Below, piece by piece: positions 6,345-45,925 of a stretch of DNA of 64,000 bases. The stretch spans positions 62,001 through 126,000 of the forward strand of contig SOER01000002.1 of NCBI GenBank assembly GCA_021646405.1, written 5' to 3'. The first letter of the stretch is position 1; every line of letters starts with the position of its first letter. The position numbers and the translations under genes are program-made. The notes under the pieces were generated by a model, which saw only the letters and a program-made list of their open reading frames with translations, had not been told where the DNA came from and did not search any database. The DNA comes from Candidatus Loosdrechtia aerotolerans (GTDB lineage: Bacteria > Planctomycetota > Brocadiia > Brocadiales > Brocadiaceae).

Positions 6345-6702
6345 GTTTACAGGAAGTCCATATACGGGTTTTTTTTCGTGTAATGAATGTAATTCCATAC
6401 ATGGAGTATGTTTTTACAAACAAATAAAAAAATAGCGTATGTCTATAAATAGACATTACTTATAAAAAATATTCCGGACTATGTATGTCCGTGTATACCC
6501 AAAATAAGATTAACCTTTTTTACTAAAGAGCCGGTTTATGATGCTCTCTTGAATAGAATTACTATAATTAATTAATTCCTCTATAGTTACGTATTAAATT
6601 TACTCTTTGAGAATTTATTTGTAAATGATTCCTCGAAAGGCATATTGTTTGTAGGTTAATGAGGAAAGTCAATAGCCAGATAAATATGATAAGGGGGAAT
6701 AT
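6345..6702. other. Intergenic region upstream of the stress gene cluster, with two inverted repeats
   Basis: Very AT-rich. It contains a perfect 18-base palindrome at 6439-6456 (atgtctat-aa-atagacat) and a second inverted repeat at 6475-6491 (cggac...gtccg). Either could be a protein-binding site for the downstream cluster or part of a weak terminator for the receptor gene; there is no clear T-run after the second arm. An AAGGGGG ribosome binding site lies at about 6691-6697, before ATG 6703. Confidence 0.4.
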
Positions 6703-7110
6703 ATGAAGAATAGAGAGGAACTGTATAATGTTCTTTTATGTTTACTTACTGATATTATGAGGCAGAGTAAACAAGTGTTTATAGGCTTTACAAAAATTAA
6801 GGCGCTATTCTACTATATAAAAGTTATTAAAGTTATACGGTCTGCATATATCCGTATATTTCTTATAATTCTAAGTTTTATTATAATGATTCATGGTTTT
6901 CTGTTTCTCCATATATCGGTGCTTTATTATTTTTCTATGAGTAGGGAGGTAAGAGCGCTCATCATCTTATCGCTCGGTGTTGTTTATTTCATGATTCCGG
7001 TAGGAGGCCTTCTGTTTTTTACTTCCCAGAAGGTCTGGATGAAACTTGCAAAAGCAAATGAGATTATACGCAAAGCGGTAGGTGAAACTTCTGGCAGTGA
7101 AATGAGATAA
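6703..7110 (+). CDS. Small two-helix membrane protein, YqjE/holin-superfamily-III-like
   Basis: A 135-residue protein with a basic, partly amphipathic N-terminus and two strong hydrophobic helices near residues 50-76 (IFLIILSFIIMIHGFLFL) and 86-108 (ALIILSLGVVYFMIPVGGLL), ending in a charged tail. This two-helix plan followed by DUF883 (YqjD-like) genes resembles the yqjD-yqjE arrangement in which a holin-superfamily membrane protein sits beside the ribosome-tethering DUF883 protein. Assignment rests on topology and neighbourhood, not on a diagnostic motif. It is the first gene of the stress-type cluster, preceded by a good ribosome binding site. Confidence 0.5.
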   Translation: MKNREELYNVLLCLLTDIMRQSKQVFIGFTKIKALFYYIKVIKVIRSAYIRIFLIILSFIIMIHGFLFLHISVLYYFSMSREVRALIILSLGVVYFMIPVGGLLFFTSQKVWMKLAKANEIIRKAVGETSGSEMR

Positions 7111-7568: not shown

Positions 7569-7892
7569 ATGGCTAACCAAATAACACATGAAGATCTCAC
7601 ACGTAAATTAGGAGTTGATGAGGCACTTGAGACATTGAATAAAGAAGTAAAAGGGAGAAAGGATGAGATTAACCGGTTGATTAACGAGAAATACTCAAAT
7701 CTTAAGGACATGATGGAGGAGACGAAGCGAACAACGAAAGAAGCTATGGCAGAAGGGAAGGAAAAAGCAAAGGAAATGGCTTCAGGGATTGATACAAGGG
7801 TTCGTACTAATCCATGGATGGCAATAAGTATTGCGGTTGCTGGTGGATTTCTTATTGGCTACGTTGTTGAATCTATGAGAACTTCGCATTGA
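7569..7892 (+). CDS. DUF883 (ElaB/YqjD-like) membrane-anchored protein, copy 2
   Basis: 107 residues, the shortest of three tandem paralogues. The N-terminal helix region (LGVDEALETLNKEVKGRKDEI) corresponds to that of the neighbours, and the C-terminus has the diagnostic GIDTRVRTNPWMAISIAVAGG followed by FLIGYV, a single membrane anchor with the Gly-rich pattern typical of the DUF883 domain. A GAGAGGAG ribosome binding site ends at about 7562. By family knowledge it may tether ribosomes or cap the membrane in stationary phase; this is not shown here. Confidence 0.8.
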   Translation: MANQITHEDLTRKLGVDEALETLNKEVKGRKDEINRLINEKYSNLKDMMEETKRTTKEAMAEGKEKAKEMASGIDTRVRTNPWMAISIAVAGGFLIGYVVESMRTSH

Positions 7893-8036
7893 TGAAAACA
7901 TACAAAGATTGATAATGCCATGTTTTCATTATCCGTAATAAACACCACTTATTGTTCATGGAAATGAGACAATAAGTGATACTTATAGTATGAAGAGAAA
8001 ATGATAATACATACGTAATGGAAAGGAGAATATGCG

Positions 8037-8471
8037 GTGGACTATCAGTCAAAAGAGGGCCGTAGGGGCAGTACGGATATTACCAGAAAACCGGAAGGAG
8101 TCAGTGCTATGGAGCAAGTGCGGAAGCATGGCAGTACCTGGAAGATAGATGAGGCACTTCAATTACTTGATGAAGCAGCAAGGGAGAAGAAGGAAGAGCT
8201 TGGCCGGTTAATGACAGAAAAGTACTCAGACATTAAAGAGGCCCTGAATGATGCAACAAAATCGTACAGGGAGGTGGTAGAAAAAACAAAGCGAAGCATG
8301 AACGACACAGTAACGACTGGGGAGGAGAAGATGAGGGAAATAACAACAGGTATTGATAAAAGAGTTCATGAGAATCCATGGCTGTTTTTCGGTGTTGCTG
8401 CAATAGGTTTCTTTCTCTCTGGTTTCCTTCTCAGTGGATCATTCCGTTCTGAAATGAAACATGAATATTAA
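8037..8471 (+). CDS. DUF883 (ElaB/YqjD-like) membrane-anchored protein, copy 3
   Basis: 144 residues with a GTG start at 8037 chosen because GAAAGGAG (8021-8028) sits about 8 bases upstream; no ATG is better placed. A polar N-terminal extension of about 35 residues precedes the shared helix (WKIDEALQLLDEAAREKKEEL), and the C-terminus carries GIDKRVHENPWLFFGVAA and a single membrane helix. It is the longest of the three paralogues. About 145 bases separate it from copy 2, so it may also have its own promoter. Confidence 0.78.
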   Translation: MDYQSKEGRRGSTDITRKPEGVSAMEQVRKHGSTWKIDEALQLLDEAAREKKEELGRLMTEKYSDIKEALNDATKSYREVVEKTKRSMNDTVTTGEEKMREITTGIDKRVHENPWLFFGVAAIGFFLSGFLLSGSFRSEMKHEY

Positions 8472-8526
8472 ATGTGGTAACAATAAAAGTGAATTTTCAC
8501 TTTGTAAACAACAAAGGAGATAGATT

Positions 8527-8706
8527 ATGCTTTACTGGGCAATAGTATTTTTCATCATATCGATTATTGCAGCAGTCTTTGGATTTGGAGACATTGCAGC
8601 AGCCACAAGCGGGATTGCTAAGATACTTTTCTTTATTTTTATTGTACTTTTTATTATTTCTTTAGTTGTCGGATTGATAAGACGTCCGCGTCCCCCTGTA
8701 GTTTAG
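8527..8706 (+). CDS. DUF1328 (YtjA-like) small membrane protein
   Basis: A 59-residue protein beginning [20 protein letters not shown] and continuing with [18 protein letters not shown], a second membrane helix and a basic Arg/Pro tail ([11 protein letters not shown]). The 'LYWA..F...A..AG.FGF..IA..A.GIAK.LF' pattern is the DUF1328 signature. Two membrane helices fit the family's usual length of 50-60 residues. AAAGGAG lies at 8513-8519, giving a good start at ATG 8527. DUF1328, CsbD and DUF883 genes are commonly found together in stress-induced clusters; the molecular role is unknown. Confidence 0.85.
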
Positions 8707-8781
8707 GAGATATCATCTTACAGTAATGATTTTCAATAAAATGAGTTGAACTGGATAGTAAGAAGAAAGAGAGGAAATAAG

Positions 8782-8937
8782 ATGACAGTAAAGAAGTACA
8801 TAAAAGGTCTGAACGACGAAAAGGATAGATACGATCGAATGAAAGAACGTTTCCAGAAAAAAAACCGAAACCGGAAACAATCCAAGAGATTAAGACCAGA
8901 ACATTATTATGAATATGATGAAAATGATGAATACTAG
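8782..8937 (+). CDS. Small, highly charged hypothetical protein
   Basis: A 51-residue protein with a strongly basic middle (KERFQKKNRNRKQSKRL) and an acidic, Tyr-rich end (YYEYDENDEY). I set the start at ATG 8782, preceded by GAGAGG at 8769-8774; an upstream in-frame ATG at 8746 lacks a ribosome binding site. There is no recognised domain. The composition suggests an unstructured, possibly nucleic-acid-binding peptide. It is embedded in the stress-type cluster with close spacing on both sides, which is the main support for it being real. Confidence 0.5.
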   Translation: MTVKKYIKGLNDEKDRYDRMKERFQKKNRNRKQSKRLRPEHYYEYDENDEY

Positions 8938-8975
8938 AAATATAAGACTAAAAACTTTTTCGTGAAGGAATAGTT

Positions 8976-9182
8976 ATGATAAATAAAGACATTTTAAAGG
9001 GAAAATGGAATCAGTTAAAAGGCGAGGTAAAAAAAAGATGGGGATCACTTACCGATGATGATATTACAAAGATCGAGGGACAGAGTGATAAATTAATAGG
9101 CATCTTGCAAGAAAAATATGGCTACTCAAGAGAGAAGGCAGAAGAGGAGGTCGACCAGTTTCTCGGTACCTCTGCGAGATGA
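8976..9182 (+). CDS. CsbD-family stress protein
   Basis: 68 residues with the CsbD signature: MINKDILKGKWNQLKGEVKK at the start, then RWGSLTDDDITKIEG and a C-terminal 'Y.RE.AE.EV..FL' helix. The length is exactly typical. CsbD-like proteins are small, soluble, abundant under general stress or phosphate limitation in many bacteria; their biochemical function is unknown. It closes the group of very small genes beginning at 6703 and is followed by a hairpin at 9277-9318 that may end the transcript. Confidence 0.92.
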   Translation: MINKDILKGKWNQLKGEVKKRWGSLTDDDITKIEGQSDKLIGILQEKYGYSREKAEEEVDQFLGTSAR

Positions 9183-9276
9183 ACCGAATAGGTAAAGCCC
9201 GCAATACACGGGTTACAAACATTACCTAATCTATCAGCCACTCCTGGAGGATAACGATAGCCCTCCATTCCACAAC

Positions 9277-9318
9277 AAACATACACCCGCCTCATCTTCA
9301 AAGAGAGGGTGTATGTTT
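9277..9318 (+). terminator. Hairpin, probable transcription terminator after the CsbD gene
   Basis: Perfect 12-base arms, aaacatacaccc (9277-9288) and gggtgtatgttt (9307-9318), separated by 18 bases and followed by tataat rather than a long T-run. The position between csbD and the hemerythrin gene suggests a terminator of moderate strength or an RNA-stabilising hairpin. Confidence 0.5.
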
Positions 9319-9367
9319 TATAATATGGTAAGTTATTCATATGAGAGAATTTTGGCCGGAGGAAAAA

Positions 9368-9817
9368 ATGGATATTTTTCAAATGATAAAAAGTGATCAT
9401 AAAAAGGTTAAGGACCTCTTTAAAAAGATGAAAGGTAAACCGAAAGGTGGCACCCGGGAATCTCCAGAAGATATTTTTCCTGAAATTGATAAAGAATTAC
9501 ACGGACATATGGAAGGAGAAGAGAAACTATTCTATTCGACACTTGAGAAAGAAGATGATTTGCGCGAGACGATATTGAAAAATTACGAAGAACACGGTAT
9601 CGCAAAAAAGATGCTTGAAGACATGGATAAAATGTCCAAAGGGGACGAGAAATGGATGGCAAAACTCTCTGTGCTGAGAGATGTTGTAGAACGACATATG
9701 AAAGATGAGGAAGGCGATATGTTTAAGAAAGCGAGAAAGGTTATTAAAAGAGATCAGGCACAGGAATTGGGAAAACGTTTTGAGGAGGAAAAGAAAAGTA
9801 TCCTTCAGGCAGTGTAA
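9368..9817 (+). CDS. Hemerythrin-like HHE-domain protein
   Basis: 149 residues. The first part (MDIFQMIKSDHKKVKDLFKKM) is the H-bearing first helix; HGHMEGEEKLFY carries the HxxxE pair near residue 52; a further EEHG and ERHMKDEEGDMF supply the remaining His/Glu ligands. This is the non-heme di-iron HHE cation-binding fold (four-helix bundle), which may bind O2 or NO or serve iron storage. The start is ATG 9368, preceded by GGAGG at 9358-9362; a longer form from 9341 lacks this. It sits at the end of the stress-type cluster, consistent with oxygen or nitrosative stress protection in an anaerobe (inference). Confidence 0.88.
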   Translation: MDIFQMIKSDHKKVKDLFKKMKGKPKGGTRESPEDIFPEIDKELHGHMEGEEKLFYSTLEKEDDLRETILKNYEEHGIAKKMLEDMDKMSKGDEKWMAKLSVLRDVVERHMKDEEGDMFKKARKVIKRDQAQELGKRFEEEKKSILQAV

Positions 9818-9886
9818 ATACTTACGATGATTGTACCGATAGTTCTATTTCCACGAGTATAATTACAGCAGAAGGAGAGAAACAAA

Positions 9887-10342
9887 ATGCAAGGGTTCAA
9901 ATCTCTTATAACTTTATTAAGTATTTTCATTCTGGGATATTCAATCTCATATGGTGAATATGAGAAATCAGAAGAAAGAGAGAGGATACGTGCAGGTACT
10001 GAATGGAATGGAGAGAAAGCAAAAGAGATTCTGGTTGTAAGCACAGACTATACAACACAACAAAAGGCGGAATATGAACGGCAGATAGAAGACAAACTGA
10101 GGGAATTTGATAAAATAGATAGAGAACTAAGCTCCAGGGCAGCAGGACTCAGCGATAAAGATAGAGTAGTTTTTAACATGAAAAGAGATGAATTTATGTT
10201 GAGGAAGAAAGCTGCGTATGAGAAATTAAAGGACCTGAAAACCGCAAGTGTTAAGTCCTGGATGCAGATAAAAACAGAGCTGGATGGCTCTATAGCTTAT
10301 TTAGCCACATTTTACGATAAGGAATTTTCTCAGTACAGATAA
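9887..10342 (+). CDS. Exported coiled-coil-like hypothetical protein
   Basis: 151 residues with a signal peptide (MQGFKSLITLLSIFILGYSISYG, cleavage near residue 23) and then a strongly charged helical region with heptad-like Leu/Ile spacing (YERQIEDKLREFDKIDRELS). No catalytic motif is visible. The helical periplasmic part is similar in style to small periplasmic proteins made under stress, but I do not recognise the family. A good AGAAGGAGAG ribosome binding site precedes ATG 9887. Confidence 0.6.
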   Translation: MQGFKSLITLLSIFILGYSISYGEYEKSEERERIRAGTEWNGEKAKEILVVSTDYTTQQKAEYERQIEDKLREFDKIDRELSSRAAGLSDKDRVVFNMKRDEFMLRKKAAYEKLKDLKTASVKSWMQIKTELDGSIAYLATFYDKEFSQYR

Positions 10343-10370
10343 CAAATAGAGAGAATCTGGGGGACACACT

Positions 10371-10910
10371 ATGTATCGGTTATTACTACCATATTTTGCT
10401 GTCTGTTTTTTTTCCCTTATTTTTATCAATATGAAAAATAGCTATACAGAAATACTTCTGTCAGAATCGGCACAAAAGGAAGGAGCAGGCGAAATACAAT
10501 CTTCCCAACCAGGCAAACCTCTTCCCTGCCAGCCTACTCCACCTGCCGAATTAGGACCTTTTTACGAGCCAAATGCACCAGAGCGAATGAGTGTTGGTAC
10601 AGGCCATACTTTAAGCGGCGTTGTTAGATCAAGTGCAGACTGTTCCCCTATAAAAGGTGCGCGTATTGAAATTTGGCTAGCTGGCCCGGATGGTAAATAT
10701 AGCAGCGATTATCGTGCAACACTCTATTCAAAGAAGTCCGGAGAATATCGATTTGAGAGTCATTTTCCTCCATCGTATTCCGGAAGACCTCCCCATATCC
10801 ACATAAAAATCGAGGCCAGGGGCTATCAGACACTTATTACACAGTTTTATCCAATAAAAGGACAATTTGATAGTAAATTTGACCTGGTGCTTGTTCCCAT
10901 TAGTCAGTAA
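10371..10910 (+). CDS. Exported protein with the intradiol ring-cleavage dioxygenase fold
   Basis: 179 residues. An N-terminal hydrophobic segment (residues 1-22) is an export signal or anchor. The rest follows the catalytic core of protocatechuate 3,4-dioxygenase-like proteins: GPFYEPNAPER, a beta-rich domain with GARIEIWLAGPDGKY, then SGEYRFES...PPSYSGRPPHIHIKIEARG and LITQFYP. The conserved iron ligands are two Tyr and the HxH pair; candidate residues here are a Tyr in SSDYRA, the Tyr of PPSY and both His of PPHIH. Cytosolic enzymes cleave catechols; a short exported version could act on phenolics outside the membrane or be a carbohydrate/peptide-associated relative. Substrate unknown. Confidence 0.75.
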   Translation: MYRLLLPYFAVCFFSLIFINMKNSYTEILLSESAQKEGAGEIQSSQPGKPLPCQPTPPAELGPFYEPNAPERMSVGTGHTLSGVVRSSADCSPIKGARIEIWLAGPDGKYSSDYRATLYSKKSGEYRFESHFPPSYSGRPPHIHIKIEARGYQTLITQFYPIKGQFDSKFDLVLVPISQ

Positions 10911-11125
10911 AAATCTTTATTATCAGGTAAATCATGTGGTAGATGAGATGATTCCTTCATTCATAAAGCCTTTTGAAAATACACAGTTTCCGTGGAATAT
11001 CTATCTGAATAACAGCAATAGTATTAAGGATATTTTCCAAAAACTTCAGGATGTATTTCATCGATGTTAAAAACAGGGGAAATGACTATTTCCTTAAAAT
11101 GGTAGGCGGAAATAATGAGGAATGA

Positions 11126-12199
11126 ATGAGACTCATGCTCTACACACGCCGGTTTATTTTATATCTTAGCGGTTTATTTATCGTATCCCATTTCTTTTTA
11201 CGATGTAATTCCAGAATAAGACTCCCTTTTTTTACTTCTCAAAATAAGAAAATTACCCCACAGGAATTTACGAACCCATACAGAGATAATGAAAAATCCT
11301 TAGTAAGCATTGTTGGCGGAGAGGATATTAGATTGATGATCAGAGAAGCTGTTTCTCTGATCGGCGGTTTCGATAAAATCGATATTAAAGGAAAGCTTGT
11401 TCTTGTTAAACCGAATATTGTTACCGGAGACAGCAATCCTACTACTACAAACCCTGAGGTTGTAGGGGCTGTGGTAAGGCTCCTTCATGAGAAAGGTGCA
11501 CAAAGGGTTATTGTAGGGGATATGTGGGATATGTCTGGACTCATGACATTCTCAACTGCATGGAATATGAAAAAAACAGGTATTCGTGAAGCTGCAGAAG
11601 AGGCTGGTGCTGAAGTTGTTTGTTTTGAAGATTATCCCTGGCTTGAAGTAGAATTGTTAAACACCAAATATATTAAAAATATCTCTATTTCAGAATGGAT
11701 ACATAAAGCAGATAGGATAATAAACCTTCCGGTAATAAAAACCCATAAATATGCTACCTATAGTATCAGTCTCAAAAATTTTATCGGAGCTACCCACTGG
11801 AAACAACGACCCTATTTCGTTGATAGGGACCACTGGGAGGAAGTAATATCAGAAATCAACCAGGCTTATACCCCACATCTTAATATTATTGATGGAACAA
11901 CTTCAATGATTACAGGAGGTCCGAGGAGTGGAATGACTGTCAAAACCAACATTATTCTCGTCAGCGGGGATAGGATTGCGGCTGATATTACAGGATTGGG
12001 TATCATAAAGAGCTTTGGCAAATGCCCAGAGATAGTTAACAAGGGTGTGTGGGAACAAAGACAGATAAAGAGGGCAGTAGAAATGGGACTTGGAGCAGGA
12101 AAAGGCCAGATAGCACTGAAAGATAAAGCCCTGAACGGATATAATAACACCTTTCATGACCTTGTTCGAAAAATTAAGGAATACATCGAGGTAATTTAA
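11126..12199 (+). CDS. DUF362-domain protein with an N-terminal membrane anchor
   Basis: 357 residues. A basic-hydrophobic N-terminus (about 1-27, containing FLRC) can serve as signal or lipid anchor. The DUF362 domain covers about 55-345: KLVLVKPNIVTGDSNPTTTNP, GAQRVIVGDM, INLPVIKTHKYATYSISLKN and GTTSMITGGPRSG are typical blocks. Many DUF362 proteins carry an extra 4Fe-4S ferredoxin part; no CxxCxxC motif is present here. The function of the family is not established. GAGG at 11117-11120 precedes ATG 11126; a second ATG at 11135 is possible. The 215-base gap before it holds no convincing gene. Confidence 0.85.
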   Translation: MRLMLYTRRFILYLSGLFIVSHFFLRCNSRIRLPFFTSQNKKITPQEFTNPYRDNEKSLVSIVGGEDIRLMIREAVSLIGGFDKIDIKGKLVLVKPNIVTGDSNPTTTNPEVVGAVVRLLHEKGAQRVIVGDMWDMSGLMTFSTAWNMKKTGIREAAEEAGAEVVCFEDYPWLEVELLNTKYIKNISISEWIHKADRIINLPVIKTHKYATYSISLKNFIGATHWKQRPYFVDRDHWEEVISEINQAYTPHLNIIDGTTSMITGGPRSGMTVKTNIILVSGDRIAADITGLGIIKSFGKCPEIVNKGVWEQRQIKRAVEMGLGAGKGQIALKDKALNGYNNTFHDLVRKIKEYIEVI

Positions 12200-12220
12200 G
12201 ATTCTTCATAAAAAAAGGAC

Positions 12221-12433
12221 ATGATAGTGAGAACCGGAATCGTAATTGCATTGCTTTTTATCTTTAATCCGATGTTTTCTGTACCGGTATTGATTACTCA
12301 AGAGGGAACAGAATGGAGAGGCAGTGGGTGTCGGAGCTATAGGAAGGCTGTGAAGTATGACCAGGCGTATAATGCTAAAACCGTCGAAACCGTTAATGGT
12401 AAACCACTCTGGGGTGAATGGAAACGGCATTAA
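12221..12433 (+). CDS. Small exported hypothetical protein
   Basis: A 70-residue product with an N-terminal signal-like segment (MIVRTGIVIALLFIFNPMFS) and a short polar, basic remainder containing one Cys (GSGCRSYRKAVKYDQAYNA). AAAAAAAGGAC just upstream of ATG 12221 supplies a ribosome binding site, and it follows the DUF362 gene by 21 bases, so the two are probably cotranscribed. No family is recognised. Confidence 0.5.
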   Translation: MIVRTGIVIALLFIFNPMFSVPVLITQEGTEWRGSGCRSYRKAVKYDQAYNAKTVETVNGKPLWGEWKRH

Positions 12434-12767
12434 TTCTAAACGCGGGATGCCCCTGCTGCTCGTAGGAGCTCAAGCGTAAAGGCCTGTGTAAAAATCTAAA
12501 GAAGATTGTACTGAATGTACGTGCTATTTTTAATATCCTTTACAAATACCCTGTGATCTAATTTTGTCTGTAACGCGATTTTTGTATCCTTTTTTTCACC
12601 GTAGTACTATAACCTTCATATAGCAACCCCTTAAGTCTTTATTTATTCCCTCAATTTAAGATTCAAAACTTCCAGTCAATTTGTTTGTAATAATTATTTA
12701 AAGAGAGAAGAGGTGTACATATTACCGTATTGTATTTTTTTATACTTAATAAGAAAGGAGAAGAACT
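12434..12767. other. Intergenic region before the CxxC secreted protein
   Basis: AT-rich DNA without a supported gene. Short Cys/Ser-like open frames are absent on both strands. AAGAAAGGAG at about 12751-12760 is the ribosome binding site of the next gene. I see no strong palindrome here. Confidence 0.35.
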
Positions 12768-13217
12768 ATGTTAAGGAGACTACAAATAGTAATGTACTGC
12801 ATGCTGGCTTTTGGCATATCATACTGTTCTTTGAATAGTATTGGACCAAAGAAACCTGCTGAAGCTAACGATATATCGAATATGAATGGAAACCCACATC
12901 ATGGAGGTTATGAAAGGTGCAAAATGTGCGGTGAACGTTATATACATTATAAAAAAGGTCCCATGGCCTTGGCACACCGTGCCGGAGAGGAATTGTTAAT
13001 AGAGAAAATAAAAGCAAAGCTTGATGAAAAGGTAGGGAATCAATTAGACAAAGTAGCCGACACCTTAGCTAGCGCCTTAATCCAGAAATATAAGGCAATG
13101 AAAGAATGTAAGAAACAATTTAAAGATTTTGAAAAACAAATAGAAGAAGCCTTCATGATGGAAGGTGGTAAAGAAGGAGGGGGTGGCGAAGGAGAAGAAG
13201 AGGAACTGATGTTTTAG
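12768..13217 (+). CDS. Secreted or lipid-anchored protein with a CxxC motif and Gly/Glu-rich tail
   Basis: 149 residues. The N-terminus (MLRRLQIVMYCMLAFGISYC) is a signal sequence; Cys20 in ISYC-SLN may be a lipobox-like cysteine. After export, a small motif NPHHGGYERCKMCGERYIHY (His-His and CxxC) could bind a metal ion or heme-free cofactor. A helical region follows (LIEKIKAKLDEKVGNQLDKVADTLASAL) and the C-terminus is rich in Gly and Glu (GGGGEGEEEEL). No family is recognised; the CxxC part resembles a zinc-ribbon knuckle. Confidence 0.6.
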   Translation: MLRRLQIVMYCMLAFGISYCSLNSIGPKKPAEANDISNMNGNPHHGGYERCKMCGERYIHYKKGPMALAHRAGEELLIEKIKAKLDEKVGNQLDKVADTLASALIQKYKAMKECKKQFKDFEKQIEEAFMMEGGKEGGGGEGEEEELMF

Positions 13218-13296
13218 GTTTACAGGGTTTCTCTTCTCAATTTTCCGGGTAGGAGACCTCGGTACAGTTTTATCCGGGAAGTTTTTACTATTGTAC

Positions 13297-13341
13297 CGGG
13301 CTTACTCAGGCCATTGGTTTCCAATGGCCTGAGTAAGCCCG
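13297..13341. terminator. Perfect 21-base inverted repeat with 3-base loop
   Basis: Arms at 13297-13317 (begins cgggcttactcaggccattg) and 13321-13341 are exact reverse complements, with loop ttt. There is no T-run after the right arm, so a classical Rho-independent terminator is not certain; it could be a bidirectional terminator, an mRNA-end protector or a protein-binding palindrome. It lies between two plus-strand genes. Confidence 0.55.
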
Positions 13342-13427
13342 AATAAGCATTATATCTAGTCATTGAAAAGGATGTTGCCTCTATTATCCTGTTTTGTCAG
13401 GATAAGGGTTTATGGAGAGTAGTTATA

Positions 13428-14429
13428 ATGAAAATAATACGAGTTTTTACACTATCTGTTCTTTTAGTTCTGCAACAGTTTGTCGTAGTTCATACTTATT
13501 TTGCCGAAGAGTGGGGCCTAAAAGAACAAACGCCGGAAGTTGATCAATGTGATAGTGTTATTTTACACTATGATGGAAAAACATGGAGCACTGTGTATCA
13601 CGGGTTTAATATGTGGCTTCATGATATTTATGGGTTTGACGATAACAACATCTTTGCCATCAGTAATGAGGGTGCTTTGTTACATTATGACGGTAAATCA
13701 TGGACTAATATCGATACAGGAAACACCCACAGGTTCAACAGAATATGGGGCAGTGATAAAGATGATATTTATATAGCGGGAGACTACGGTGTGGTTCTCC
13801 ATTATGACGGGAAAGAATGGAAAAAACGTGAAATTGGTCTTGATGATTGGCTAAGTGATGTTCGTGGTTTTCATAGAGATGATATATTTTTTGTAGGAAC
13901 CATGGGGAGGATATTGAATTACCGGGGTAAGAACTGGGAGAGACACAATAGCGGTACCAGCAGTTGGCTTTATGGTATTTGGGGGAAGGATAGGAACAAC
14001 ATGTACGTTGTAGGAGATTATGGTACGATCCTTTCCTATAATGGAGAGGAATGGAAGAAGCATATACAGGACACAAATAAAAAGCTCATGAGTATTTGGG
14101 GTACAGATTTAAACAACATATTTGCTGTTGGTGCAGACGGTACTGTCCTTCATTATGATGGTATTATATGGGGACAGCAGATAAGCCGTACCGACAACTG
14201 GTTAAGAAAGATATGGGGCATTGATAAAAATACCGTCTTTGCCGTGGGAGATCAGGGAACAATTATACACTATAATGGCTCGGAATGGACCCTGCATGAG
14301 AGTGGTACAGATCATCTCCTGTCCGGTATCTGGGGAAATAGAAACGACAGTATCTATGTTGTAGGATATAACCCGGCCACCCTGTATTACCGTATTTCAT
14401 ATAGTCCGTTAGGTGCAAGATTAAGATAA
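13428..14429 (+). CDS. Secreted seven-repeat beta-propeller-like protein
   Basis: 333 residues: a signal peptide (MKIIRVFTLSVLLVLQQFVV) and then seven nearly regular repeats of about 39-40 residues. Each repeat reads roughly 'ILHYDGK.W......(W)L..IWG.D.NNIFAVGD.G', with an eighth partial strand (ATLYYRISYS) at the end. Seven blades with a split last blade is what a closed propeller ('velcro' closure) would need. No catalytic residue stands out, and the repeats differ from WD40 and Kelch in having the 'W..IWG...(I/V)(Y/F).VG..G' core, like Ycf48/BNR-related propellers. Probably a periplasmic binding or assembly protein. Confidence 0.75.
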   Translation: MKIIRVFTLSVLLVLQQFVVVHTYFAEEWGLKEQTPEVDQCDSVILHYDGKTWSTVYHGFNMWLHDIYGFDDNNIFAISNEGALLHYDGKSWTNIDTGNTHRFNRIWGSDKDDIYIAGDYGVVLHYDGKEWKKREIGLDDWLSDVRGFHRDDIFFVGTMGRILNYRGKNWERHNSGTSSWLYGIWGKDRNNMYVVGDYGTILSYNGEEWKKHIQDTNKKLMSIWGTDLNNIFAVGADGTVLHYDGIIWGQQISRTDNWLRKIWGIDKNTVFAVGDQGTIIHYNGSEWTLHESGTDHLLSGIWGNRNDSIYVVGYNPATLYYRISYSPLGARLR

Positions 14430-14447
14430 TATGGGAGTATATACGAT

Positions 14448-15656
14448 ATGTCTGAACAGAGAAAGGATACCCGGAGAAAGCGTGACGGTTTCCTCAATAC
14501 CTGGTACTACAAGCTCTTTTTAGCAATTACTATTATTGCGGTCCTGATTCTTACCATCCGTATCGTACTCAACCCCGTTGCCCTTTATTTTACAAGGGAA
14601 TCACTTGGAGAACTTCAGGGATATACCGGGACGGTTAAAGATGTATCAGTATCAGTTGTACCACCCAGATTTGAAATTGCTGATATTAAGCTTGCCGAGG
14701 ACCCCGGGAAACCGAATGAATTCCTTTTTTCTGCAGAACGCATCCGGCTTTCTCTCGTAGAAAATATGCTCTTAAAAGGAACTCTGGTTGCAAATGTGAC
14801 TCTTGATTATCCTAAGGTGGTATTTGTTCAAGAGAAGGTGGCACCACCAGAGGTGAAGGAAGAAAAGAAACCCCCGGAGATTCCGGATGTAGAAAAAGAA
14901 CTCAAGCAGGTACCACCTCTACGTATTAACCAGGTTGTGATGAATGAAGGTGAGATTGTTTTTGTCGATGCAACAGAGGAGACCCGGCCTCAATTGTGGG
15001 TCCATGATATGAAGGTTGAGGTCAACAATGTTGCAACCCGGGAAAAGCTCGCCCGGGATACACCAACGACTGTTACTGCTACTGCTGTAATCCAGAGATC
15101 CGGAAGAATGAAATTTTTCATGACCGTTAATCCATGGGAAAAAGGGCTTACCTTTTCAGGGGAATTAGAATTAAAGGGATTGGCCTTACCCGATCTCAAA
15201 GATTTCTTCACGGCACAAGCAGAACTCCAGCCTGTAAGAGGTACTTTTAGTCTTTTTGTTACATTTCAGGTAAGGGAGAACAAGATTACCGGTGGAATCA
15301 AACCCATTCTGGAGAATGTAGATGTAGCACCCGAAGATCCCTCCTTTGTAAACTGGCTTAAATCTAAGTTTATCGATGCAACTATATCACTGCTCTCCGG
15401 TACACCGGAAGCCCCGGAAGAGGAAAAGATTGCTACCGTTATTCCTATAAAAGGCACTATACAAGACCCGAATCCACAAATCCTCCCTACCGTTCTCGGA
15501 ATTATCCGTAATGCGTTTGTTGAGGGTTTAGCAGCGGGATTTACCAATCTCCCGCCGCCGACTGCACCCGAGAAGGAAGGTGTTATGGAACAGATATTTG
15601 ATGCCATAACTCCGGAAGGAGGGCCTCCTAAGGCCCAACCAGAAGAAGATGAATAG
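14448..15656 (+). CDS. DUF748 (AsmA-like) envelope protein
   Basis: 402 residues with one N-terminal membrane helix (about residues 22-45) and a long periplasmic region. Characteristic pieces are VSVSVVPPRFEIADIKLAED, INQVVMNEGEIVFVDATEE and SGELELKGLALPDLKDF, which match the AsmA/DUF748 pattern of repeated beta-strands ('G.I.F.D.....P......I...V'). The C-terminus is Pro/Glu-rich. AsmA-like proteins are thought to bridge the inner and outer membrane for lipid transport; that role here is inferred from family. Its 3' end overlaps the next gene by 8 bases, so the two are coupled. A second, much larger DUF748 gene lies at 52034. Confidence 0.8.
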   Translation: MSEQRKDTRRKRDGFLNTWYYKLFLAITIIAVLILTIRIVLNPVALYFTRESLGELQGYTGTVKDVSVSVVPPRFEIADIKLAEDPGKPNEFLFSAERIRLSLVENMLLKGTLVANVTLDYPKVVFVQEKVAPPEVKEEKKPPEIPDVEKELKQVPPLRINQVVMNEGEIVFVDATEETRPQLWVHDMKVEVNNVATREKLARDTPTTVTATAVIQRSGRMKFFMTVNPWEKGLTFSGELELKGLALPDLKDFFTAQAELQPVRGTFSLFVTFQVRENKITGGIKPILENVDVAPEDPSFVNWLKSKFIDATISLLSGTPEAPEEEKIATVIPIKGTIQDPNPQILPTVLGIIRNAFVEGLAAGFTNLPPPTAPEKEGVMEQIFDAITPEGGPPKAQPEEDE

Positions 15657-39910: not shown

Positions 39911-40180
39911 ATGGGACAAAAGGATATGAAACCATACACATCATATCAGAAAAAAGTAATCAGGAATTTTTATGAGAATAAAGACCTTCGTCTTCTGCAA
40001 AAATTAGGAGAATTAGTTTCAAACTTGTATCTGGAAACGAACGAGAAGAAGAAGGAAACCGGGTGGAAGAATATCAGGAAAATGCTTATCGACCTGAGAG
40101 TAGATCCAAACGAGGTAGAATACTTAACGAAGGATAGAAACCTTGCCATGGTTTCAAAAAAATTAACAGAGATCTTTTAA
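39911..40180 (+). CDS. Small conserved-looking hypothetical protein
   Basis: 89 residues, mostly helical and charged (KKVIRNFYENKDLRLLQKLG, ETNEKKKETGWKNIRKMLI), no signal, no cysteine, no membrane segment. AGGGGAG at about 39901-39907 precedes ATG 39911. The composition and ribosome binding site support a real gene, but no family or function is recognised. Confidence 0.6.
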   Translation: MGQKDMKPYTSYQKKVIRNFYENKDLRLLQKLGELVSNLYLETNEKKKETGWKNIRKMLIDLRVDPNEVEYLTKDRNLAMVSKKLTEIF

Positions 40181-40208
40181 CGGGAATAGCTATGCTTTTT
40201 CCCCGGTA

Positions 40209-40961
40209 TCAACAAATACTTACAGGTTTTCCCGCAAACCCAACCCTTAATCTCCGGATAATATCGTCAACAAAGCCATTATCAAGCCATTTGCTTAAGC
40301 CCATGCTTTCGTATATCTTAAAGGTCTTTGCGGTATAATTCATCCTATCAATAAGAACGCTGTCAACATAAGGGTTTATCTTCTCCAGGAGTGCTTCAGG
40401 GTTCATAGGTAACACCGGGCCTATAAAGGTATAAACGCTTATCCCATTGTTACGAAGTGCCTTTAAGGCGCTGATTCTTGCATGAATAGATGAGGCATGT
40501 GGTTCGAAAACCTTTCTTATTTCCTCATTATCTGTTGTGATGGTAATGCCAACCTCTCTGTTTTTGAATTGTTTAATCAGACCGATATCTCTTAAAACAA
40601 GAGGTGATTTTGTCAGTATATCTATGGGGAACTGATAGGGTAAAAGGACTTCGAGGCACTGCCTCGTAAGTTTGTATTTTGCCTCGACGGGCTGGTAGGC
40701 ATCTGTTACAGAGCTGATGATGATATTACCTCTTGTTGTCCTTTTGATTTGCTTCCGGAGAATTTCCGGAGCATTGATCTTAACATCCACAAAGTCTCCC
40801 CACGCCTCTGTATGGCCTGTATACCTTTTCATGAAGGTTGCATAACAGTATCTGCAGGCATGAGAGCAACCCGTATAGGGATTCACACAGTAATCAATAC
40901 CAGGGATCCTCGATTTGCTGAGAACAGATTTAACCTTTATTTCCCGAATGATCAGACTCAT
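40209..40961 (-). CDS. SPL-like radical SAM protein
   Basis: 250 residues. The motif GCSHACRYCYATFMKRY gives the CxxxCxxC cluster site of the radical SAM family near residues 30-37. ISSVTDAYQPVE and TKSPLVLRD are typical of the spore photoproduct lyase-like (SPL/DUF1848-related) subfamily. The C-terminal half contains VYTFIGPVLPMNPEAL and SVLIDRMNY. Related proteins repair or modify DNA or have unknown substrates; no spore genes are present. It is a lone minus-strand gene convergent with the gene at 39911. Confidence 0.85.
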   Translation of the reverse strand: MSLIIREIKVKSVLSKSRIPGIDYCVNPYTGCSHACRYCYATFMKRYTGHTEAWGDFVDVKINAPEILRKQIKRTTRGNIIISSVTDAYQPVEAKYKLTRQCLEVLLPYQFPIDILTKSPLVLRDIGLIKQFKNREVGITITTDNEEIRKVFEPHASSIHARISALKALRNNGISVYTFIGPVLPMNPEALLEKINPYVDSVLIDRMNYTAKTFKIYESMGLSKWLDNGFVDDIIRRLRVGFAGKPVSIC

Positions 40962-41390
40962 ACTATAATTTTAACGGGGAGAGGATGTTGTTGCCACGTA
41001 ATTAATGAGTTTTTAAAATAGCTATAGTACTCTACGGATGAAACCGAACATATTTTGCCCACACCAGAATGTAATTTTAAAATGTATTCTTTTCTATTCT
41101 GTTCGGTCTTATCTGTTGAATACCCTATACAGAACATCTGAGGAAGGCAGGAACGGCAGGAAAGAAAAAAAGGAGTAGAACATCTAAGGAAAGCAGGAAT
41201 GGCAGGAAGAGGAAATTAGTATGATGTGTAGAGCGCTATACCTTTCCATATCAGGGTCTTCTTGTTTTTTAAGCCCTTGTATAAAAGAGAATCTTTTTTC
41301 CTGAATTTCCTGCTTTCCTTAGATGCTATAGGTAATAAGAATTGAAACCGAATCTATGAGGAATACAATGTAATTCTGGGGATACCATAC
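40962..41390. repeat. Repeat-dense intergenic region
   Basis: No supported gene. It holds the repeat at 41020-41049 (see 39717), a doubled motif near 41138-41210 (acatctgaggaaggcaggaa and acatctaaggaaagcaggaa, about 50 bases apart), and a 66-base dispersed repeat at 41264-41329, the second copy of 17933-17998. The reverse complement of the doubled motif is part of the 66-base repeat (ttcctgctttccttagatg), so the region looks like an inverted pair of the same family. Confidence 0.65.
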
Positions 41391-41763
41391 TTAATTACGG
41401 AGATTCACATTTTTCTTTTGAGGCCCCTTTGGGCTTGGTTTATGCCCGGGTAGTATTCGCCCAAGAACATTTTCAAGCCGAGCTATAAAACTGTCTGTGC
41501 CAGGTGGTCTCCCGGTTCTCTTATGACATCGAAACTCCTCGGTCTGCTCATTCGACAGACCTCTGGAAAGAAAATCGTCCCACTTGCCAAACATCTCAAG
41601 CAGCGGTGCCACGTGCACAAGCCGATCGTCTTGCCCTGCAAGGTGTGAACGTGCACTGTTCCATTGGTACTCCTGTGGTTTCTTCACCAACTTCGCTCTG
41701 GCAGGATTCAGTTCAACATAGCGTGCGGCTAAGTATAGATATGCTTTATACATGGGAAAAGAG
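41391..41763 (-). pseudogene. Truncated RAYT (REP-associated tyrosine transposase)
   Basis: The segment YLYLAARYVELNPARAKLVKK, QEYQWNSARSHLAGQDDRLVH and RTGRPPGTDSFIARLENVLGR are the C-terminal half of the Y1/RAYT transposase family. The N-terminal half, with the HUH metal motif and the start, is missing: directly upstream (to the right) the sequence changes to the attC-like site of the restriction-modification cassette. Reading through the attC produces nonsense, so the transposase is beheaded. RAYTs mobilise REP palindromes, and palindromic repeats are plentiful in this window. Confidence 0.75.
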
Positions 41764-41830
41764 GTAAAACGTCCCGGTTCAGCGGCGGGCTGTGCAGCGG
41801 ACCGTCCGCTGCAACCGGTTGTTAGCGGGC
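41764..41830 (-). repeat. attC-like recombination site at the 3' end of the restriction-modification cassette
   Basis: Read on the minus strand: R'' box gcccgctaac (41830-41821), L'' ccggttgcagcgg (41818-41806), a central part with an inner hairpin, L' ccgctgaaccgg (41785-41774) and R' with the cgtt cleavage core (41771-41768). L'' and L' pair perfectly except for one extra G in L'', the extrahelical base typical of attC sites. The methyltransferase stop codon lies only 3 bases before the R'' box. The 10-base R'' box is the exact complement of the cassette start at 44384-44393. Confidence 0.75.
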
Positions 41831-41832
41831 AT

Positions 41833-43413
41833 TTATGCTTTGGCGAAGAGCCCAAGTTGCTTTATCCTCGGCACTACAGCGGTGTGTGGCAAGAGGTCCA
41901 TAATGAATACGGCCGGTACATTGCTAAGTTCGCGCGGCTCTAGTTTGTGCAACCCGCCTCCATAGACGCGGCCCTCGCCAAGTAGAACATCAGCGGGCAA
42001 CTTATTGAGTGCGCTCCAGATCTTGCGCAGAAGACTTGGATCTCGATCCATTTCACGAGCAATCAGAGGTGTCGGGTACAGCGCCAGGTAAACGTTCGCC
42101 ACCGTAGCGTGCGAACCGTTGAGGATGAAGCGAAAAGGCCTGCCGCTCTTGGAGTCGCCGCGTCCGAGATACGTGCAGACAATCGGCGCGGGTGGCCGGT
42201 CTTCCTGACCATACCAGAGGGTACGATGCTTACAGAGATACCGTTCCTGTAAGCCCTTTGCCTTCCCCTCTTCCAGATAGGCAGCTAGAGCCGGGAAGCG
42301 CCTATGAATCTCTTCCTCGGAGAGCTTCGTGTTGAGCAGGAAGAGTCGGCGGTCGATGTCGGGAGAGCCGTCTTTTCGGGCCTTCACTTCATCGTGCGCT
42401 AGGTAGCGTGGGCTTGGAAGGATCGGTGTGAACACTTCCATTGGCAGACCGCGCGTAAGAATCTCTTTCTCAGAGAGGATGAAAAAATTGTTGTCACCTG
42501 TGGCGATGCCGCGCTTGATTCTGAAGAAGTCGGAGAGTGTCGGAATGTCCGAGCGACTGCGCACATCGGCAATGGGGAAGCGGGTCCACTTTGGTTCGCG
42601 CGCAAGAACGTGGGCCGAGATGACGCGGCTGACTCTCGGCTCGAAAAGCGTACCACCAAAGGTGAACTTTACTTCGTGGTCAGCAGGGGGGCGCGTATTT
42701 CGAAACCAGACGATGGTCGAGGAGACGAGGGCGTCGGCGAACTGTACGTCGTTTGGATCGAAACGGTGAATGTGCAGGAGCGTCACGCGGTCGAGGAGAT
42801 ACCGCTTCACGGCATGGCCGTAGTTTACATCCATGAACTCGCTCGGGATGAGCCAGCCCGCGATGCCGCCCTCGGTCATCCAGGCGTGAGACAGCCCGAG
42901 GAAGTGGCAGTAGAGACCCGCCAGGCCGCTAATCTTCATGCCGCTGGCTTGCTGCGTGCGCAGCTGCAGGCGCGTCTTGTTGCCGTTATGCAGATGGTGA
43001 TGCCGCACGTAAGGGGGATTGCAAATAAGCACGTTGATATGAGGCGTTGGCTCCGCGTTGGTAAAGTCGGCGAATGTCAACACTAGGCCAGTGTCTTTCC
43101 AAAGCTTCGCTGCTGGTTTGCCGTAGTGTGGATCGATCTCGAACCCGAGCGCTTCGGCAATACGCTTTTTCGGGACAAATTTTAGAAGGGCCGAGTAGAA
43201 TGAGCCTGTGCCGAAGGCAGGGTCGAGGAAATGAACCTTCTCGGCCGGGGGCAGACGGGCCACGGCGTAGCGCACGATGTCCTCGGCGAGGCCCGAGGGG
43301 GTGGCAAACTGGCCGATGCGGTTGCGCTCGGCTTGGGACTTTTCTGCATCGAGAGAAGCTTGTAGCGCGAGGCGCTCCTGCTCTTTAGCTGTGACGGTCC
43401 CAGACATGCTCAT
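41833..43413 (-). CDS. Adenine-specific DNA methyltransferase of a XamI/SalI-type restriction-modification system
   Basis: 526 residues. A class I SAM methyltransferase with motif I FLDPAFGTGSFYSALL near residue 45-60 and motif IV ICNPPYVRHHH near 130, the NPPY form that marks N6-adenine enzymes. Further blocks are WLIPSEFMDVNYG and IKRGIATGDNNFF, with a target recognition region in the second half. A four-base overlap (43410-43413) couples it to the upstream endonuclease frame. A second ATG at 43407 is an alternative start. Neighbouring endonuclease similarity suggests GTCGAC as target; this is inference. Foreign composition relative to neighbours. Confidence 0.85.
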   Translation of the reverse strand: MSMSGTVTAKEQERLALQASLDAEKSQAERNRIGQFATPSGLAEDIVRYAVARLPPAEKVHFLDPAFGTGSFYSALLKFVPKKRIAEALGFEIDPHYGKPAAKLWKDTGLVLTFADFTNAEPTPHINVLICNPPYVRHHHLHNGNKTRLQLRTQQASGMKISGLAGLYCHFLGLSHAWMTEGGIAGWLIPSEFMDVNYGHAVKRYLLDRVTLLHIHRFDPNDVQFADALVSSTIVWFRNTRPPADHEVKFTFGGTLFEPRVSRVISAHVLAREPKWTRFPIADVRSRSDIPTLSDFFRIKRGIATGDNNFFILSEKEILTRGLPMEVFTPILPSPRYLAHDEVKARKDGSPDIDRRLFLLNTKLSEEEIHRRFPALAAYLEEGKAKGLQERYLCKHRTLWYGQEDRPPAPIVCTYLGRGDSKSGRPFRFILNGSHATVANVYLALYPTPLIAREMDRDPSLLRKIWSALNKLPADVLLGEGRVYGGGLHKLEPRELSNVPAVFIMDLLPHTAVVPRIKQLGLFAKA

Positions 43414-44362
43414 AGTCCGAATCTCGCGAAGTCGTCGATGCGGTGTTCCCAGACCCAGTCGATGCCTTCTGCGGCCTCGTATCCCAAGTACCCGCTGTCA
43501 AAGTATCCGCAGAGGAAGAGGTTGAATTGCACCTTCTTTCCGTGCGTGCTGCGAAGCTGAGACATCTTCACAGCCTCTTCTTTGCGGCGCTTGTTGGTGT
43601 TTGTGAAATCACCTGCGGACTTCGCCTCGAAGAGTGCTTCCTGGCCGTCTTGGGGTTAATGACGGCGTCGATGGGGATGTTGACGGACTTGGCGCCACCT
43701 TCGAGCTCCACTGGTACGTTCATTCGGAAGCTGAAGGTTCCCGGTGGCATTGCGTTGAACTTGACTCCGTCGTTAGCCATGAGTTGTTTGTAGCCACGTG
43801 CTTCAAGCCACGCCTTGATAGCCGCGAGCTGCCGCTGCTCCTGAGCGTTGCGGATAATGGGGTTGGCGACTGCACCGCAGAGCCTGTCCGCGACGATTGT
43901 GGCGGCTCGGTGGATTTCGGGCTCGGTGGCCGGTTGGTTCTTGCGCGAGAGCCATACGAAGATGTCAGGGTCGGCCATCTTTTCGATGATTGCAGCGATG
44001 CAGGCGAGTTCCTTGTCGGCCGCCGCTTGCGTCATGCGCGCGGGGAGCTTCTTCTCGATCTCCATGTATTTTACGAGTGTACTCGAGACGCCAGCGAGAC
44101 CAATGAGGCGATCGACCGCGAGAGGTGGACAAGTCGACATGCGGAGCGTTGGAAGGATTTCCGGGTGCTGTCGTATCGTCGCAGGCCGGATGTTCGTGAG
44201 GTTGCCGGTCGAACGCAGGGTTGATTCGACGTCCTTGGTAGTCTGAACGCGCGTCTTGCGGAAGGCCTTCGGCGAGAACTTCATGAACCAGTCGTTATAC
44301 ATGTCTACTGACACCACGACATCGGCCTTCCATCTGTCCGGTTTGTCTCGATTAACTGCCAT
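43410..44362 (-). pseudogene. XamI-family restriction endonuclease with a single-base frameshift
   Basis: The first frame (44362 down to about 43645) gives WKADVVVSVDMYNDWFMKFS, RPATIRQHPEILPTLRM and PPLAVDRLIGLAGVSS, the N-terminal pattern of XamI-like endonucleases. Near 43641-43650 the reading jumps to the next frame, where the expected catalytic end continues: QEALFEAKSAGDFTNTN, then FLCGYFDSGYLGYEAAEG and a stop at 43410-43412 that overlaps the methyltransferase ATG. The total of 953 bases is one short of a whole number of codons, consistent with loss of one base near the ggcc of that region. The PD-(D/E)xK residues (IPIDAV and FEAK) lie on opposite sides of the break. It is a mutation, sequencing error or a recoding site. 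Confidence 0.75.
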
Positions 44363-44383
44363 GCGCTATGCGATTTCCAGTTT

Positions 44384-44484
44384 GCCCGCTAACGTTCACG
44401 ATCAGCCGCAATTTTCGCTGGCGCGGCTTTTGCGGATACAAAAGGCGTGACATCGGAAATTGTCGGCTGATCGTGCTGTTATGT
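44384..44484 (-). repeat. attC-like recombination site upstream of the cassette
   Basis: Read on the minus strand: R'' cacataac (44485-44478), L'' at 44475-44457, a long variable loop, L' at 44414-44397 and R' acgttagcgggc (44395-44384). The two L arms are complementary over 18 bases with a single extra A (44463) in L'', again the extrahelical base expected for attC. The orientation is the same as that of the site at 41764-41830, as in a cassette array. It would belong to a preceding cassette whose body lies to the right of the site. Confidence 0.7.
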
Positions 44485-44510
44485 GTCATCTTCAGGTTCG
44501 ATTCCCCAAG

Positions 44511-44640
44511 TTATGCGATTTCTATACCCGCCTTCGCAGCTAAACCTTTCGAATCGACATCTTTTATTTCAGCCGAATATATAAATAAAGAGAACATCTT
44601 TAGGGGTAAAACTTGCGTTGATAATTTTATTACTTTTCAA
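44511..44640 (-). pseudogene. Possible remnant of a preceding cassette gene
   Basis: A short open frame on the minus strand ends with a stop (44511-44513) about 26 bases before the R'' box of the right attC-like site. Its last residues (IKDVDSKGLAAKAGIEIA) look coding, but no start or upstream gene body is recognisable and the DNA to the right becomes very AT-rich. It could be the 3' end of a gene whose rest was lost. No family is recognised. Confidence 0.3.
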
Positions 44641-45028
44641 AAAGTCAGGATTTAATATACTCGGATTGTATGCTTTTGCAAGCATAACAATTGAAAAATT
44701 TGTATAATTAGACGTCATAATTATTGGTTAGAAGAATATTTAAAAAAGAAAGATGAAATGTGCATTTACTATACATTAGAGTAGATTATTTTGTCAAGAA
44801 GAGATATTTAATTTTAACATAAACTATCGCCTCCATCATTCTACGATTAGTACTGTAAGGAAATTCTCCTTGTGGCTTCGGTAGTTAGTGAGCTAATGAA
44901 GTATAAAGAATCTATGGACATCAGGGATTACTTATTTTATAATTAAGGGGTCAACTATTATATAGAATAATTGCGTATATAGTTATGTTTTAGCATGATA
45001 GAGATTTTGGTTTTGTTTGAATTTGAAT
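44641..45028. other. AT-rich intergenic region right of the cassette
   Basis: About 390 bases without a gene. It contains a near-palindrome (ttgtatgctt...aagcataacaa, about 44667-44690). The change from GC-rich cassette DNA to AT-rich DNA happens within 44540-44700. No clear ribosome binding site is seen before 45029. Confidence 0.4.
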
Positions 45029-45925
45029 ATGATAAAGATAAACAGAGAAGATCACGATATTCCTGAAGATATGGTACTCATCCCTGAAGGGCCTTTCTTG
45101 ATGGGGAGTACAAAACATGATATTGACAAGCTGTTGGAGCTTGACCAAAATATTGAAACAGATCGGCTGTATAATGAATTTCCGCAAAGAGAAATCTCCT
45201 TAAACGCATATCTTATAGATAAACACCCGGTTACCAATGCTCAATTTAAGAGATTTATTGAGTCAGGGGGGTACAGAGAGAAGGCGTTCTGGTCGGACAC
45301 CGGATGGAAATATATTATAGAAAACCCTCCGGGTGATAGTGATTTGGATGCCATTTCCCAGGGCGAACAGGATTGTCCTGTTGTAAACATCTCCTGGTAT
45401 GAAGCAGAGGCATTTGCAAACTGGGCGGGAAAAAGACTTCCTACTGAGGCGGAATGGGAAAAGGCAGCCCGTGGAAGTGATGGCAGGATGTACCCATGGG
45501 GAAACGACTTTGATAAAGCCCGGTTAAATTGTGCCGAGTTAAAGATCGAAAAACCTACCCCGGTCACAAAATTTCCCCAGGGTCAAAGTGTTTACGGGTG
45601 TTTTGATATGGCAGGCAACGTATGGGAATGGGTAGCTGACTGGTATGATAGTCAGTACTATCAACATTCTCCTGATGAGAACCCACAAGGACCAACAATA
45701 GCGGAGGAAAATCCCTATTTTGGAAGACCCGAGGATGTGGGCATCTCTATTTATGAATTAAAGCCGTCTCCGACGAGCGGGGTGCTGAGTGGTTGTAAGG
45801 TGCTGCGGGGCGGTTCATGGAATGGATCCGGTTTGATCCATATCCGCTGCGCAAACCGGGATTATGATGAGCCTGCCTATAAGAACGATACCATTGGTTT
45901 CCGATGTGCTAAGTCTCTGCTATAA
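45029..45925 (+). CDS. SUMF1/FGE-sulfatase-fold protein lacking the FGE active-site cysteines
   Basis: 298 residues from ATG 45029 (TTG 45017 is an alternative). The formylglycine-generating-enzyme fold is clear: MVLIPEGPFLMGS, VTNAQFKRFIESGGY, CPVVNISWYEAEAFANWAGKRLPTEAEWEKAARG, YPWGNDFD and GNVWEWVADWYDSQYY, and the end GGSWNGSGLIHIRCANR...TIGFRCA. In true FGE enzymes two active-site cysteines lie within the block before 'RCA.R'; here that block reads NGSGLIHI, without Cys. The protein is therefore probably not a sulfatase-activating enzyme; many related proteins have other roles (for example ergothioneine-type or regulatory proteins). Function unknown. Confidence 0.85.
   Translation: MIKINREDHDIPEDMVLIPEGPFLMGSTKHDIDKLLELDQNIETDRLYNEFPQREISLNAYLIDKHPVTNAQFKRFIESGGYREKAFWSDTGWKYIIENPPGDSDLDAISQGEQDCPVVNISWYEAEAFANWAGKRLPTEAEWEKAARGSDGRMYPWGNDFDKARLNCAELKIEKPTPVTKFPQGQSVYGCFDMAGNVWEWVADWYDSQYYQHSPDENPQGPTIAEENPYFGRPEDVGISIYELKPSPTSGVLSGCKVLRGGSWNGSGLIHIRCANRDYDEPAYKNDTIGFRCAKSLL

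Follow-up and report, generated by a model that had tools for sequence, protein, structure and literature searches.

A decayed XamI/SalI-type restriction-modification cassette outside an integron in a Brocadiales-like genome, probably placed by off-target integrase action

The 64-kb window analysed here, the whole stretch C22:62001-126000 of a 3.26-Mb genome in 61 contigs whose gene content points to a Brocadiales-like planctomycete, holds a two-attC CALIN, a cluster of cassettes with no integrase beside it. The CALIN has a horizontally acquired, decayed SalI/XamI-type restriction-modification (R-M) cassette and was probably placed there by IntI through attC × attG recombination together with deletions. 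Read along the minus strand, the order is a fragment of a gene that we call X, cassette 0 with attC_0, the R-M cassette with attC_RM, and the 3' half of a RAYT (REP-associated Y1 transposase-like) gene. The R-M cassette (41770..44392, minus strand) is 2623 bp long and has a GC content of 57.8%, as compared to 42.2% for the window. It starts with TTAGCGGGC after the G of attC_0 and terminates at the G of its own attC, and these ends agree with the boundaries of six homologous cassettes. Cassette 0 (44393..44594, minus strand) is short or truncated, sits between attC_0 and the broken gene X and has a possible C-terminal coding tail (ending in EIKDVDSKGLAAKAGIEIA and a stop); no relative of it was found among 57 genomes. 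A start for this cassette at GTTATG near 44688 was abandoned once gene X had been recognised.

As a simple arm-pairing scanner gave 104 hits and was too noisy alone, we built a covariance model of attC. The model, which is home-made and is not IntegronFinder, was trained on nine attC sites, all drawn from other contigs or genomes, a set that excluded both sites in the window as well as the near-identical attC of a GH1 glycosidase cassette. Run with filters off on the 64 kb, it scored attC_RM (41764..41827, minus strand) at 36.0 bits (E 6.7e-7) and attC_0 (44387..44484, minus strand) at 28.4 bits (E 7.4e-5); these were the only matches below E 1, the third-best being at E 1. The first lies past the methyltransferase gene, with R'' CGCTAAC and R' GTTTTAC, the TT.. 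of this R' being derived from the RAYT gene. The second lies before the endonuclease gene, with R'' ACATAAC and R' GTTAGCG. The R''/L''/L'/R' layout, the extrahelical base in L'' and the AAC/GTT cores are present in both sites, and each bottom strand forms an attC hairpin (z -2.9 for attC_RM and -8.3 for attC_0, with 0 shuffles folding as well in either case). Rfam gave no match in the window. These results bear out a first-pass annotation, which had placed two attC-like sites here in the same orientation, with one extra base in L'' and AAC/GTT cores, and had proposed both the covariance-model search and the single-stranded folding.

That annotation also took as its most telling mark the fact that the cassette start, GTTAGCGGGC (44384-44393, minus strand), is the exact reverse complement of the cassette's own R'' region, GCCCGCTAAC (41821-41830 in the annotation's count). 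The match is indeed exact, and such complementarity, which restores R' in the circular form, is found here and in the homologues. It is not the most telling mark, however: inverted pairs of GTT 10-mers 0.3-5 kb apart number nine in the window, the R-M cassette's pair included, and the 10-base match taken alone is weak evidence for a cassette. The frequency of such pairs would suit a reading in which chance hairpins flank an ordinary R-M operon and no integron cassette exists, as would the finding that about 72 of the 80 homologous modules fetched have no attC past the methyltransferase. We consider this reading extremely improbable in view of the covariance-model E-values, the genome's own IntI, a near-identical attC in its own integron, and cassette ends that are conserved in distant genomes; the comparative result has already refuted it.

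That result came from a scan of one genome per species, which gave 428 relatives of the methyltransferase, the best 80 of the 428 being fetched. In six homologous modules, from Nitrospira (L057), Thiobacillus (L061), Desulfobacteraceae (L081 and L097) and two further loci (L059 and L074), the endonuclease is preceded by GTTAGCGGG, as in the window cassette, and CGCTAAC and an attC follow within about 30 bases after the methyltransferase stop. The R-M unit thus occurs between attC sites with differing neighbours. The covariance model added an attC past the methyltransferase in L088 and L104, bringing the homologues to eight. Protein identity of the module homologues (Nitrospira, Thiobacillus, Desulfobacteraceae and others) is 59-87%. 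The Nitrospira copy has 88% DNA identity to the window from cassette start to attC and is divergent outside both ends, and attC_RM is near-identical to the attC sites of L057, L059, L061 and the GH1 cassette. In a Silanimonas copy (86%) the sole attC match is a weak one on the upstream side (E 0.004). Since most homologues have no attC after the methyltransferase, the module also exists outside integrons.

We regard these comparisons as the decisive test of cassette nature, and they show an integron cassette travelling across phyla. The covariance model, the folding, the cross-phylum homologues and an empty site in relatives all uphold the earlier proposal that a planctomycete-like chromosome holds XamI-type R-M genes on an integron-type cassette with flanking attC. 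An R-M cassette common to very different bacteria, at up to 88% DNA identity, has here been caught outside its integron.

The claim that the cassette carries a full R-M system did not survive. The XamI-type endonuclease gene (43412..44362, minus strand) is a pseudogene: compared to five homologues, it has a 13-nt deletion between 43638 and 43637, immediately ahead of the FFEAKS (EAK) motif, and the shifted frame stops at 43568. Because these 13 nt are missing, the match to RE_XamI (PF09572) covers positions 2-190 of 256 only, as compared to 2-256 of 256 for the intact Nitrospira endonuclease. A homopolymer error was considered as the source of the frameshift and ruled out, as the alignment has a 13-nt deletion. 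The adjacent methyltransferase gene (41833..43413, minus strand), on the other hand, is open and intact. It encodes an N6-adenine DNA methyltransferase (Eco57I/N6-type) of 526 aa with DPAFGTG and NPPY motifs, matches PF07669 and PADLOC MTase_II (PDLC03328, E 7.6e-141), and resembles M.BseCI.

It is likely that the dead R-M system has left a solitary methylase, and the survivor would probably be an orphan N6-adenine methylase with the target GTCGAC, a specificity that rests on the family name. GTCGAC was not avoided in 252 kb of the genome (16 observed vs 16.2 expected), and therefore gives no sign of long restriction pressure. The locus is like SalI/XamI-type R-M systems in having an endonuclease of the PF09572 family and an adjacent N6-adenine methyltransferase, and unlike them in that the endonuclease is frameshifted and the methyltransferase may act alone. 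Decay of a defence cassette is seen here, with the endonuclease lost and the methyltransferase retained.

R-M systems on integrons have been reported since 2001 (Rowe-Magnus 2001 and Vaisvila 2001, as cited in PMC4176335 and PMC12707154), and cassettes for defence, among them size-reduced type II restriction genes, have been described (Darracq 2025 and Kieffer 2025, as summarised in PMC12409362). So far as these citing texts describe them, the super-integron R-M cassettes and the 2025 defence cassettes resemble ours in presenting type II R-M genes as a mobile attC cassette, whereas the window cassette is of the XamI/SalI family, lies outside an integron, has a decayed endonuclease and belongs to a Brocadiales-like host. 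R-M cassettes of integrons are already known, and the window cassette is a good further example and not a new kind. The view that the arrangement is highly unusual and seldom described is also hard to sustain given how common CALINs are: they number 2961 vs 2760 complete integrons (PMC9024848) and lie away from an integron in about half of Xanthomonas genomes (PMC12444791). Planctomycete integrons were noted by 2008 (PMC2426708), and 23 of the 57 relatives searched have an IntI match exceeding the curated cut-off.

No integrase had been noticed nearby. This is true of the window, and IntI had no match on its contig C22, but the genome does have a complete IntI with an array on C11 (C11:129409-130353; 492.9 bits vs a cut-off of 265). 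It has 51.7% identity to IntI1, its catalytic residues can be read from the sequence, and its integron has three cassettes with three attC. The GH1 glycosidase gene is one of these cassettes (L009 8251-9985), and its attC (L009:8251-8314) is 87.5% identical to attC_RM. The genome-wide search for intI and attC, which had been recommended, gave further attC on C55, C51, C23 and C44. With two attC in one orientation, no intI in the window and a complete integron elsewhere in the genome, the locus is a CALIN; what sets it apart from other CALINs is that its cassettes run into a RAYT gene broken at the crossover motif. A CALIN in a genome with IntI and scattered attC is expected rather than surprising.

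Other integron traces were seen. On C55, L013 (G000:C55:106000-125000) has at 7948-15270 a second attC cluster without integrase that includes a NucS_C/DUF4268 cassette, with an Mrr-type restriction endonuclease gene and a HigBA-like pair near it. An attI-like sequence of about 210 bp adjoins a single cassette at C23 (L166, about 6597-6802, attC 7728-7837) and at C44 (L167, 7212-7486, attC 8132-8213), both without intI, and also lies beside an IntI 3' fragment (C21:4381-4590). Its copies are 71-80% alike and terminate at G^TT before the single cassettes, and 27 of the 57 relatives searched have a match, frequently where intI or an intI fragment has its 3' end. It probably represents attI in integrons with intI and array in the same direction. 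A reading of the C23/C44 repeat as a new landing pad was dropped, an attI region at the intI 3' end being most likely.

The cassettes of the window lie within a lineage-specific 4.84-kb insertion (40179..45015) that separates a conserved gene pair, a small ORF (39911-40180) and an FGE-sulfatase-domain gene (45017-45925). In four relatives (G001, G005, G012 and G017) the counterparts of 40178 and 45016-45060 adjoin or lie some tens of bases apart at most, which marks 40179-45015 as DNA inserted in this lineage. The suggested comparison with relatives therefore did reveal an empty site, one that pertains to this larger insertion. The syntenic loci of the relatives had no attC match at E 0.05. 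Within the insertion is a relocated radical SAM gene (PF04055; 40209..40961, minus strand), whose homologues sit at other places in G005, G017 and G022. The stretch 41022-41368, next to the RAYT half, is a repeat with several copies on C32, C20, C33, C17 and C61.

The RAYT 3' half (41391..41769, minus strand) is broken at GGACG^TTTT. It starts at the T after GGACG, at a point where the intact genes of relatives run through (CAAGGACG^TTTTGCC). The cut is G^TT, the integrase crossover motif, in cassette orientation, and this fits an attC × attG event because such an event requires that orientation. At the junction, attC and RAYT have GGACGTT (7 bp) in common, and so the exact junction point could lie elsewhere in the shared stretch and a microhomology route is conceivable. 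GACG can be assigned to the attC because that of L061 closes with the identical CCGGGACG and then runs on differently, into TTATGT. Taken as a whole, this junction speaks for insertion by IntI at a non-classical (attG) site, with microhomology as a possibility.

On this favoured route, IntI would have acted on the cassette's attC, folded from the bottom strand, and recombined it with G^TT inside the RAYT gene. Deletions would then have stripped RAYT of its 5' part and the array of its left part, leaving what remained of the array fused to the gene X fragment. Off-target IntI rearrangements have been described (PMC10127599), and insertion of cassettes at attG has been reported (Loot 2024, as cited in PMC11023631 and PMC12901181). 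To the extent that those sources relate it, the present case is like attG insertion in that a cassette abuts DNA from outside an integron at a G^TT of the expected orientation, and unlike it in that the window has one target half only.

The flanks of the cassettes count against direct attG insertion. The RAYT 5' (upstream) half is missing, being absent beside the cassettes and not found elsewhere in the genome, and the left side adjoins a different gene, X. The fragment of X (44595..44718, minus strand) is a 5' piece broken at GATG^TT, with 63% identity over residues 1-43; the gene is intact in G019 (215 aa) and similar in G025, and the rest of it was sought in the window's own genome and not found. 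As RAYT lies on one side and X on the other, the simple target-cassette-target pattern is lacking and a later deletion must be assumed. The locus is therefore a good but not complete case of natural integrase-driven insertion at a non-classical site, and a candidate natural example of off-target cassette insertion, for which most knowledge comes from experiments.

Another possibility is that the cassettes were moved passively within the 4.84-kb rearrangement, with no integrase action at the locus and junctions made by microhomology. The radical SAM gene located elsewhere in relatives, the GGACGTT common to both sides of the RAYT junction and the fragmentary state of both RAYT and X are consistent with such a move, but the RAYT break falls at the single integrase crossover position in the correct orientation, and we consider passive transfer somewhat unlikely.

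It could also be speculated that a complete integron once stood here, that its attI and intI were lost by deletion so that only these cassettes of its array survive, and that a RAYT which had entered the array was joined to attC_RM by deletion. The genome has other decayed integrons (C23 and C44 without intI, and the IntI 3' fragment on C21), the arrays of G001, G010, G012 and G030 have RAYT elements inside them or close by, and in G025 roughly 1 kb separates gene X from an attI-like site and cassette. Since RAYT elements are found in or near the cassette arrays of relatives (L026 and L054), this RAYT may already have been in an array. The idea of a former integron is nevertheless doubtful: a search of the window gave no attI-like sequence, the empty site of the four relatives has no integron trace, and RAYT is cut exactly at the attC crossover. 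Insertion by IntI followed by deletions remains our preferred reading.

In four related genomes (L026, L028, L025 and L054), RAYT elements with inverted ends (GGGGACACCATACTTAATT) were observed either within cassette arrays or no more than a few kb from them. A mechanistic link between RAYT elements and cassettes in Brocadiales-like genomes, in which RAYT would enter arrays or serve as landing sites and so spread defence cassettes, seems quite improbable. If it were true, a RAYT route could take defence cassettes out of the integron and across the chromosome, and RAYT and cassettes may both depend on folded single-stranded hairpins.

Only about 30 bases separate the cassette start from the endonuclease start, so the R-M cassette has no obvious promoter of its own there. 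Upstream of X and directed into the cassettes is a putative sigma-70-like promoter, TTGACA-18-TATAGT (44768..44797, minus strand), a pattern match with 11 of 12 positions agreeing. Transcription of the cassettes, if any, would now come from this predicted X promoter.
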